Assembly (NCBI GenBank): GCA_018824305.1
Contig: JAHJGM010000058.1
Span: 1 to 34,171 of the forward strand
Length of the DNA: 34,171 bases
Direction: 5' to 3'
From: a bacterium
GTDB taxonomy: Bacteria; Campylobacterota; Campylobacteria; Campylobacterales; Sulfurimonadaceae
Shown piece after piece: positions 16,691 through 20,389 of the stretch. A model generated the notes under the pieces. The model had not been told where the DNA came from and ran no database searches. It saw only the letters and a program-made list of their open reading frames with translations. Both the position numbers and the translations under genes were made by a program. The stretch's first letter is position 1; every line of letters starts with the position of its first letter.

Positions 16691-17248
16691 ATGCTAGAAA
16701 TCAGATGGCACAGCCGTGCAGGACAGGGTGCTGTTACTGGTGCAAAAGGTTTGGCAGACGTTGTTTCGACAACAGGCAAAGAGGTGCAAGCGTTTGCATT
16801 TTACGGTTCTGCTAAGCGTGGGGCGGCTATGACCGCTTATAATCGTGTCGATGACAAACCGATAATGAATCACGAAAAATTTATGAGTCCAGATTATGTT
16901 TTTGTTATAGATCCGGCTTTGGTATATACGACTGATGTGACTATCAATGACAAAGAAAGCACAGTGTATATCATCACGACTCACATGAGTACTGATGAGC
17001 TTGTGGCTTCTCAACCGAAACTTGCAGGCAAAAAAGTCTTTACGGTCGATTGTATTAAGATCGCGCAAGAGACTATTGGCCGTGCTATTCCAAATACACC
17101 TATGCTTGGTGCATTTATGAAAATATCAAAAATGTACGACATAGAGTTTTTCAAAGAAAACATGAAACGTATTTTGGGCAAATTACCACAAAAGATCATT
17201 GATGCAAATATGTTGGCTATTCAACGTGCATACGATGAAGTGAAATAA
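16691..17248 (+). CDS. porC: Pyruvate:ferredoxin oxidoreductase gamma subunit
   Basis: Gamma subunit of the four-subunit enzyme that interconverts pyruvate plus CoA with acetyl-CoA and CO2 using ferredoxin or flavodoxin. The 185-residue protein has the family start MLEIRWHSRAGQGAVTGAKGLADV, then GSAKRGAAMTAYNR and NTPMLGAFMKI. It is the first gene of porCDAB, which runs without a gap to 19.85 kb. A 130-base intergenic stretch upstream (16561-16690) probably holds the operon promoter; TATATT and TAAAAT candidates are present but I cannot choose between them. AGGGGAC precedes the ATG. Confidence 0.93.
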   Translation: MLEIRWHSRAGQGAVTGAKGLADVVSTTGKEVQAFAFYGSAKRGAAMTAYNRVDDKPIMNHEKFMSPDYVFVIDPALVYTTDVTINDKESTVYIITTHMSTDELVASQPKLAGKKVFTVDCIKIAQETIGRAIPNTPMLGAFMKISKMYDIEFFKENMKRILGKLPQKIIDANMLAIQRAYDEVK

Positions 17249-17258
17249 GGAGCGAATG

Positions 17259-17654
17259 ATGGCAAATAAAGGATGGGATGAATTCGAAATTGGCGCAATG
17301 CTCCGTTCATTTAACGGTCCTGTTAGTGATGTTGCATTAACTCATCAAGAGGATAGGGATTATTCAGAAAATAACTCTTTTACTGCAAGTGTTGCTGATT
17401 GGCGTATAGAAAAACCGGTGTTTAACAAAGACTATTGTATCGATTGTCAATTTTGTTGGATCTATTGTCCTGATATCTCTATCATCTCTCGTGACAAAAA
17501 GATGGTAGGTGTTGATATGGACCACTGTAAAGGTTGTGGTATTTGTGTAGAGGTGTGTCCTACAAACCCAAAATCATTACTTATGTATTCAGAACAAACA
17601 GACGAGGAAGAAGCATTAGCTGCTTGGCCTAGTAAAGAGACAGGAGAAAAATAA
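17259..17654 (+). CDS. porD: Pyruvate:ferredoxin oxidoreductase delta subunit (2x[4Fe-4S])
   Basis: The ferredoxin-like subunit that carries electrons from the PorB cluster outwards. The 131-residue protein has two CxxCxxCxxxC motifs, at Cys60/63/66/70 (CIDCQFCWIYCP) and Cys90/93/96/100 (CKGCGICVEVCP). The start at ATG 17259 is preferred to ATG 17256 because AAGGAG (17247-17252) is then 6 bases away. The N-terminal segment (KGWDEFEIGAMLRSFNGPVSD) is the usual PorD extension. The stop overlaps the porA start as TAATG. Confidence 0.94.
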   Translation: MANKGWDEFEIGAMLRSFNGPVSDVALTHQEDRDYSENNSFTASVADWRIEKPVFNKDYCIDCQFCWIYCPDISIISRDKKMVGVDMDHCKGCGICVEVCPTNPKSLLMYSEQTDEEEALAAWPSKETGEK

Positions 17655-18877
17655 TGGCATTTGATAAAATGGAACTACGTGACATTGAAGTTTGGGACGG
17701 TAACTTTGCCGCTGCTCAAGCACTAAGACAGTGTCAGATTGATGTTGTTGCTGCATATCCTATTACTCCGTCAACTCCTATCGTTGAGGGTTACGCGAAG
17801 TTTTTAGCTGATGGATATGTTGAGGGCGAGTTTGTTATGGTTGAGTCTGAGCATGCTGCGATGAGCGGATGTATTGGTGCTGCGGCTGCAGGCGGACGTG
17901 TTGCTACTGCAACTTCGTCTCAAGGTCTTGCACTTATGTCTGAGACACTTTATCAAGCATCAGGTATGCGTTTACCGATCGTACTTAACCTTGTTAACCG
18001 TGCGCTTGCTGCACCGCTTAACGTTAACGGTGACCATTCGGACATGTATATGGTAAGAGACAGCGGCTGGATACAGTTCGATGCATACAATCCGCAAGAA
18101 GCGTATGATTTGAACTTTATTGCTTTTAAAGTGGCTGAAGACCATGATGTACGTCTACCGGCAATTGTCAACCAAGACGGTTTCATGACTTCTCATACAG
18201 CACAAGGTGTTAAGACTTTAACTGATGACGCAGCATATAATTTCGTAGGAGAGTTTAAACCTATGAACGATATGCTTGACCTTGACCATCCTGTGACTCA
18301 CGGTGTACAAACCGAAGAGGATTGGCACTTTGAACATAAAGCTCGTCAGCATAGAGACCTTATGGTGACTGTAATGCCTAAGATCCAAGCAGCGTTTGAC
18401 GAGTTTGAAAAACTAAGCGGACGTAAATATAACATCGTTGAAGAATACGATATGGACGATGCTGACGTAGCCGTCGTTTGTATGGGTACATCGGTAGAGA
18501 CTGCACGTGAAGTAGCAACAGAGATGAGAGCACAAGGGATCAAAGCAGGTGTCGTAGGTATCCGTGTCCTTAGACCTTTCCCATTCATGGAGATCGCAGA
18601 AGCACTTAAAGATGTTAAAGCTATTGCAGCACTAGATCGTTCATCTCCAAACGGTGCTGCGGGAATGCTCTTTAATGAGATCGCAGGGGCACTTTTCAAT
18701 ACTGACACGAAAGCATTGCTCTCAGGTTATGTTTACGGGCTAGGTGGTCGTGACCTTACAAAAGCTCATTTAAGAGATCTGTACAAAGAGCTTCAAGCAA
18801 ATGCCGATGCAGGCAAAGTTACAACTCAACTACAACAGTTTATCGGCGTTCGCGGTCCGAAACTGGCATTTTTATAG
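17654..18877 (+). CDS. porA: Pyruvate:ferredoxin oxidoreductase alpha subunit
   Basis: The alpha subunit provides part of the thiamine-pyrophosphate and CoA sites. The 407-residue length matches the family. Recognisable segments are VVAAYPITPSTPIVEG, MVESEHAAMSGCIGAAAAGGRVATATSSQGL, VNRALAAPLNVNGDHSDMY and LDRSSPNGAAGMLFNEI. The start overlaps the porD stop. The T-rich codon choice resembles that of the oxidase and ribosomal genes, which suggests strong expression. Confidence 0.95.
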   Translation: MAFDKMELRDIEVWDGNFAAAQALRQCQIDVVAAYPITPSTPIVEGYAKFLADGYVEGEFVMVESEHAAMSGCIGAAAAGGRVATATSSQGLALMSETLYQASGMRLPIVLNLVNRALAAPLNVNGDHSDMYMVRDSGWIQFDAYNPQEAYDLNFIAFKVAEDHDVRLPAIVNQDGFMTSHTAQGVKTLTDDAAYNFVGEFKPMNDMLDLDHPVTHGVQTEEDWHFEHKARQHRDLMVTVMPKIQAAFDEFEKLSGRKYNIVEEYDMDDADVAVVCMGTSVETAREVATEMRAQGIKAGVVGIRVLRPFPFMEIAEALKDVKAIAALDRSSPNGAAGMLFNEIAGALFNTDTKALLSGYVYGLGGRDLTKAHLRDLYKELQANADAGKVTTQLQQFIGVRGPKLAFL

Positions 18878-18890
18878 AAAGGAGATTCTT

Positions 18891-19667
18891 ATGAGTGAAA
18901 TAAAAAAAATAAAAAACTTAAAAGAGTTCTCAACTTCAGCGGATCGTTTTGAGGGTGCTAACCTTCTTTGTCCTGGTTGTGCTCACTCTATCATTGTTCG
19001 TGAGGTATTAAACGCGACAAACGATGACCTTATCCTTTCAGCATCTACTGGATGTCTAGAGGTTTGTACAGCGGTTTATCCATATACTTCTTGGGATGCA
19101 TCTTGGATACATATCGGTTTTGAGAATGGTTCGACTGCTGTTGCAGGTGCTGAGGCGATGTACAAAGCATTGAAGACTAAAGGTCGCTTAAAACAGCCTG
19201 ATCGTGAACCGAAATTCGTTTCTTTCGCGGGTGACGGTGCGTCTTACGATATCGGTTTTCAATGGATATCGGGATGTATGGAACGCGGGCACAATATGAT
19301 GCATATCGTACTCGACAACGAAGTCTATGCAAACACGGGTGGACAACGTTCATCTTCTACACCGATCGGTTCGAGTGCAACGACTTCTCCGGCAGGCCGC
19401 ATAAGCTACGGTGAAAAGAAAAACAAAAAAGATATGATCTCCATCATGGCAGCACACCAGATCCCTTACGCTGCTCAAGTCGCTCCGAACAAATGGAAAG
19501 ATATGGTCAAAAAGATCCAACATGGTCTTGCTGTTGAAGGTCCTGTATTTATCAATGCTATGAGTGCATGTACTACGGAGTGGAAGTTCGATCCAAAAGA
19601 TACTATGAGTATCTCTGATCTTGCTACTGACTCTTTAGTATTCCCACTGTATGAGATCATTGACTGA
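18891..19667 (+). CDS. porB: Pyruvate:ferredoxin oxidoreductase beta subunit, truncated by in-frame TGA
   Basis: The beta subunit binds thiamine pyrophosphate and an iron-sulphur cluster. Visible features are LLCPGCAHSIIVREVL, ASTGCLEVCTAVYPYTSW (cluster Cys), the TPP motif GDGASYDIGFQW and VLDNEVYANTGGQRSSSTP. The start is ATG 18891 with AAAGGAG at 18878-18884. The frame stops at TGA 19665-19667 after 258 codons (…LYEIID), yet the same frame continues beyond it with typical PorB C-terminal sequence to TAA 19845-19847. A full-length protein would have about 318 residues, close to the roughly 314 I recall for Helicobacter PorB. Gly (GGA) is the likely ancestral codon. Either a mutation, a sequencing error or readthrough explains it. 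Confidence 0.93.
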   Translation: MSEIKKIKNLKEFSTSADRFEGANLLCPGCAHSIIVREVLNATNDDLILSASTGCLEVCTAVYPYTSWDASWIHIGFENGSTAVAGAEAMYKALKTKGRLKQPDREPKFVSFAGDGASYDIGFQWISGCMERGHNMMHIVLDNEVYANTGGQRSSSTPIGSSATTSPAGRISYGEKKNKKDMISIMAAHQIPYAAQVAPNKWKDMVKKIQHGLAVEGPVFINAMSACTTEWKFDPKDTMSISDLATDSLVFPLYEIID

Positions 19668-19847
19668 CATGAGTTAAACATCACTTACCGTCCTAAAAAT
19701 GTCGTTCCTGTTGAGGAATATCTTGCAGCTCAAGGTCGTTTTAAACATCTTTTCAAAGATGAATACAAATACCTTATTAAAGAGTGGCAAGAACGTGTTG
19801 ATGCTCAGTGGGCATATCTACAACGCCGCGAAGAAGCACGCGTTTAA
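19668..19847 (+). pseudogene. porB: PorB C-terminal continuation beyond the in-frame TGA
   Basis: The 59 codons after the TGA stay open in the porB frame. They read HELNITYRPKNVVPVEEYLA, then AQGRFKHLFKDEYKYLI and on to a basic end, with the PVEEYL..QGRFKHL pattern that ends PorB-type beta subunits. No start codon permits independent expression: the only nearby ATG (19669) is out of frame and meets TAA after two codons. Codon use matches the rest of porB. The open frame argues that the TGA is recent, an error, or read through. Confidence 0.75.
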
Positions 19848-19861
19848 TTAAAGCTTCATCT

Positions 19862-19962
19862 TCAGCGCACCCCAAGGGCATTTGTCCCTTCGGTCGGGCA
19901 CATCTTGCGCCTAACTCAGACACTCGACGTATTTTTAGTACGCCTTCAGTCTGAGTTAACTG
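19862..19962. repeat. Intergenic palindromic element after porCDAB
   Basis: The 239 bases between porB and the next gene hold a GC-richer block with nested inverted repeats. TAACTCAGAC (19912-19921) and GTCTGAGTTA (19949-19958) are perfect 10-bp arms. Inside them CGTA (19928-19931) pairs with TACG (19939-19942). To the left AAGGG (19874-19878) pairs with CCCTT (19886-19890). The composition differs from the AT-rich flanks. It may be a dispersed intergenic repeat or a small structured RNA, and could also end por transcription, though no T tract follows. There is one copy in this window. Confidence 0.5.
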
Positions 19963-20086
19963 AAATCTACACTAAATCTAAAACTTTTCTCTACCTCTTA
20001 TCTTTAAATAAAAACATTAACCCCTTACCTAAGTTATTGTAATATATAAATAATGATAGAATCTCAAAAAAAGTAGGGACTATGAT

Positions 20087-20389
20087 ATGAATATTTTATT
20101 GGCTATGGATTGTGACGATGTAGAGGAAGCAAAACTTTGCAAGATAAATGACGTGAAAAAATGGGCTATTATTGCAGTAGAAGAGGGTGAAGTGATCGAG
20201 ACACTTTTTGCTGATCATAGAGAGGATTTTGAGCTTTATCCTGAGACGGTAGTGGTCTTTGACGACAATGAATATGTCTGGCCATTCATCGAAGAACAGA
20301 TGCAGGTCTTAGTCGCACATACGCAAAGAACAATAGATGACATCGTAGAAGCGTATCTTTTTAAAGAACTGCATGATCTCGCGTATTAA
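20087..20389 (+). CDS. Small acidic protein of unknown function
   Basis: A 100-residue, strongly acidic soluble protein (MNILLAMDCDDVEEAKLCKI at the start, FDDNEYVWPFIEEQMQVLV in the middle). I do not recognise a family. The alternating hydrophobic and acidic pattern suggests a compact alpha/beta fold. The start follows TAGGGACT at suitable spacing. It overlaps the next gene by 17 bases in another frame, so the two are probably coupled and functionally linked. Confidence 0.75.
   Translation: MNILLAMDCDDVEEAKLCKINDVKKWAIIAVEEGEVIETLFADHREDFELYPETVVVFDDNEYVWPFIEEQMQVLVAHTQRTIDDIVEAYLFKELHDLAY

Follow-up and report, generated by a model that had tools for sequence, protein, structure and literature searches.

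A single TGA in the porB frame

Is the TGA that interrupts porB in this Sulfurimonadaceae genome a wrong base in the draft, a true and recent nonsense mutation, or a codon that is read through to yield two forms of PorB? These three options had been left standing by the initial annotation of the window (the whole stretch of 34,171 nucleotides analysed here); the first two survive our analysis, whereas programmed readthrough is very unlikely. The frame is organized as first described: on the forward strand, it starts with the ATG at 18891, runs through codons 1–258 (18891–19664) to the motif LYEIID, meets the TGA at codon 259 (19665–19667) and resumes with HELNITYRPK for 59 sense codons up to the TAA at 19845–19847, so that the intact tail (codons 260–318 plus the TAA) occupies positions 19668–19847 and the whole span (18891–19847) encodes 318 residues if the TGA is read through. 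The base 3' of the TGA is indeed a C, and the site lies outside any homopolymer. A genome-wide search located a single porB locus in the genome from which the window originates (G000, a 71-contig draft, 99.74% complete and 0.45% contaminated), and a second porB copy was rejected on this ground.

Read through the TGA, PorB aligns over residues 1–318 with full-length relatives (best identity, 96%), and conservation in the tail matches that of the remainder, which argues that the open frame beyond the TGA does not result from chance. The part beyond the TGA is thus a normal PorB C-terminus, as proposed initially, and a single codon breaks an otherwise intact frame. Compared to the full-length PorB of Sulfurimonas-type pyruvate:ferredoxin oxidoreductases (POR), which has the same length and is 93–96% identical in the nearest relatives, the read-through protein differs by one disrupted codon, Gly/Asn being replaced by TGA. 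Among named records, the closest are MAGs assigned to Sulfurimonadaceae, Sulfurimonas and Campylobacterales, and no match was obtained with plasmid records.

The gene belongs to a conserved four-gene operon encoding the four-subunit enzyme, the other members of which are all intact and lie on the same strand: porG/porC, the gamma subunit (16691–17248; NF004497, 348.8 bits for a cut-off of 243), porD, the 4Fe–4S delta subunit (17256–17654; NF007204, 221.6 bits for a cut-off of 125), and porA, the alpha subunit (17654–18877; NF007201, 742 bits for a cut-off of 590). The best NCBIfam model for porB itself is PorB NF008819, with scores of 301.4 bits for the read-through and 266.7 bits for the truncated product, both below the curated cut-off of 405, so that the assignment of PorB as the beta subunit rests on its place beside porA, porD and porG and on its homology to two beta subunits of known structure (PDB 9bt4_C and 5c4i_C). 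The Pfam domain TPP_enzyme_C is matched by both forms, while full-length homology, including the C-terminal region, is displayed by the read-through protein and the 258-residue product is devoid of the tail. Residues C27, C30, C55 and C227, which we take to correspond to the cluster ligands of homologous PFORs, are invariant among relatives and, like the TPP domain, all precede the TGA. AlphaFold2, run on the read-through protein with 23 close relatives, returned a mean pLDDT of 34, and the model was discarded.

Codon 259 in other porB genes

Among the 97 other distinct porB sequences compared, codon 259 specifies Gly in 90 cases and Asn in 7; none carries a stop, Cys or Trp at this position and none ends there, leaving the window copy as the only one of 98 with a stop at codon 259. 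The Gly codon is GGA, one transversion away from TGA, in G006 and in the same-genus locus L033 of G002. GGA is therefore the likely ancestral codon on comparative grounds, in keeping with the earlier suggestion that a GGA-to-TGA change is the simplest cause of the interruption. A family scan of 228 genomes found porB in 193, and the other matches listed were all free of an interior stop, as were the other matches listed in a search of 60 relatives; in what was seen, the TGA is neither conserved nor recurrent. That a single draft genome, and no relative examined, carries the TGA indicates an isolated base change rather than a special reading of the gene. More specifically, these comparisons make it very probable that porB has undergone a GGA-to-TGA substitution, private to the G000 assembly, in an otherwise intact gene and with no recoding mechanism attached. 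In this respect, porB resembles the ordinary nonsense lesions or base errors of draft genomes (one substitution, intact flanks, one assembly), but differs from them in being a highly conserved metabolic gene.

Draft error or recent nonsense mutation

The substitution could stem from either of two sources, between which we infer the following division: an error in the draft consensus, the cell having GGA where the draft shows TGA, to which we would give an even chance, and a genuine nonsense mutation of very recent origin, which would abolish or impair the activity of the four-subunit POR and be tolerated through a NifJ-type PFOR, a serious possibility that we hold somewhat short of even. A consensus error is suggested by the fact that a single change, absent from every relative among the matches listed, affects a single 71-contig draft and a conserved gene with no other decay. 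About 757 kb of G000 were set against 1.6 Mb from G003, a complete genome, giving 350 orthologues that total 108,310 aligned residues and share a median identity of 86%. Of these, porB alone displays an interior stop with high identity on both flanks; the other interior-stop matches, six of which were inspected in full and the remainder judged by position and alignment, appear to reflect starts called too far upstream, ORFs that overlap or run antisense to another, or, in msrA, a domain boundary. Likewise, no convincing frameshift in a conserved gene was found among the 350 orthologues. The sole convincing nonsense codon is thus an isolated base, which fits one rare consensus error as well as one recent mutation; the lack of companion lesions and the position outside a homopolymer speak against an error, and the cleanliness of the sampled assembly slightly favors a real base. 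Note that the same comparison revealed an MsrA gene (L166:10819–11673, contig C20 of G000) devoid of the fused MsrB-like C-terminal part present in its G003 orthologue.

The state of the tail bears on both readings. Relative to the three nearest relatives, codons 260–318 display 0–2 nonsynonymous and 11–15 synonymous changes, and they contain no residue that is rare among relatives, from which it follows that the TGA is either very recent or not real. The undecayed tail would mean that selection has not yet relaxed, that the stop is unreal or that it is read through. Third-position divergence in the tail is lower than elsewhere when G000 is compared with several members of the genus; the same holds for G003 versus G006, so that a regional recombination event or a chimera was rejected, the feature not being specific to G000.

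A young nonsense mutation accounts for such a tail, and it could be tolerated in G000, given an intact single-chain PFOR of the NifJ type (1189 residues, C15:124627–128196; TIGR02176, 1827.6 bits for a cut-off of 911). However, the same search returned no NifJ-type match in G001 and G002, which belong to the same genus, showing that NifJ is not universal. Moreover, porA, porD and porG are intact, no other porB is broken among the matches listed, and a true loss is less expected for a gene of a conserved four-gene operon.

Predicted consequences of a true TGA

If the base is real, RF2 would terminate translation at codon 259 and the product would be mostly a PorB of 258 residues, full-length protein arising only through basal misreading of the UGA. 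The truncated form would retain the TPP domain and the putative cluster-ligand cysteines and lose the last 60 residues, which are conserved. Function would probably be lost as a result, since the missing part, which aligns with the C-terminal regions of 9bt4_C and 5c4i_C, holds many invariant residues. A separate tail peptide would not be readily made: the tail contains no in-frame ATG, GTG or TTG, and reinitiation was rejected for this reason. In such a cell, the NifJ-type PFOR could cover part of the lost pyruvate oxidation or synthesis, and G000 would constitute a natural test of the replacement of the four-subunit POR by NifJ. For annotation purposes, porB should be flagged as interrupted in the G000 assembly, and not as a split or recoded gene.

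Readthrough and recoding

Genes in which a UGA is read as selenocysteine or read through combine an in-frame UGA with a conserved tail downstream. porB shares both features with them, but differs by the lack of detected Sec factors, of UGA conservation and of an RNA signal. A functional or tolerated readthrough producing two PorB forms, in favor of which the fully conserved tail can be invoked, is very improbable in our estimate: the stop is conserved in 0 of the 97 other distinct porB genes, and the RNA around and after the TGA folds no better than shuffled sequences (z values of −0.53, −0.17 and 0.28, hence −0.5 to 0.3). UGA is the leakiest stop codon in E. coli, where basal stop readthrough amounts to ~0.4–2% under standard conditions (PMC10959953, PMC11126739), and UGA readthrough is far higher in some E. 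coli reporters under stress (PMC10959953, PMC11126739); as to the 3' context, the difference between TGAA and TGAT has a minor effect (PMC10959953). However, the amino acid inserted at misread UGA codons in E. coli is mostly Trp (PMC11126739), which is absent from the Gly/Asn position 259. A basal readthrough of ~1%, as at any UGA, may occur here and would not represent a programmed mechanism. We found no paper in which the beta subunit of PFOR is discussed together with stop-codon readthrough. The related scenario of a genuine TGA that has become fixed in the species, the truncated protein together with a little misread full-length PorB tuning the flux between POR and NifJ, appears more doubtful still.

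The decoding of UGA as selenocysteine, or its reassignment to Gly, can be dismissed with near certainty: the open tail alone speaks for it, against (i) the absence of tRNA-Sec and SelB matches over the family cut-offs in G000, (ii) an intact prfB gene (RF2), above its family cut-off, (iii) the use of TGA at 61 of the 242 orthologous gene ends sampled over about one third of the genome (130 end with TAA and 51 with TAG), (iv) the absence of a UCA anticodon among the 26 tRNAs recovered, an incomplete set, and (v) the absence of Cys at codon 259 in relatives. The sub-cut-off tRNA-Sec matches are ordinary tRNAs, and those of SelB are probably other translational GTPases, as judged from their open frames and partial coverage. 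The genetic code of G000, as read from its gene ends, is standard, which bears out the initial remark that TGA ends other genes and that the code is unaltered; a selenoprotein or a code change was rejected on the first four of these points.

Sequences downstream of porB

Directly 3' of porB lies a palindromic structured element (19850–19989; model match, 19882–19989), unrelated to the TGA, that many Sulfurimonas-like relatives carry at this position. It covaries strongly: in 39 aligned relatives, 14 of the 15 consensus pairs show changes on both sides that maintain pairing. No Rfam family matched the element at gathering score, the matches below being at chance level. The corresponding covariance model detected one copy in G000, versus 60 rows in G014 and 29 in G031, two genomes from another genus in which a few rows correspond to one site counted on both strands. 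Some of the copies in G014 and G031 (loci L267, L268, L283, L284, L290, L291 and L293–L296) are in tandem, and several of those inspected lie at gene 3' ends or stop codons, often between convergent genes. The ends of the element appear to resemble a bidirectional terminator, and the element may be either such a terminator or a REP/ERIC-like repeat. Genes for Y1 transposases number two each in G014 and G031 and none in G000 and G003, a distribution which, over these four genomes only, hints at a REP-like spread.

The 5' part of the palindromic element is split by a small GC-rich insert (approximately CCCCAAGGGCATTTGTCCCTTCGGTCGGGCAC, ~19867–19901). Similar stretches occur elsewhere in relatives (L066:7909–7945 and L036:7435–7472), suggesting that the insert is probably a dispersed mini-repeat. 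Finally, porB is followed by an ORF of 100 codons (20087–20389) that matches no Pfam or NCBIfam model; its presence at 55 of the 98 porB loci points to a real, albeit unnamed, gene.
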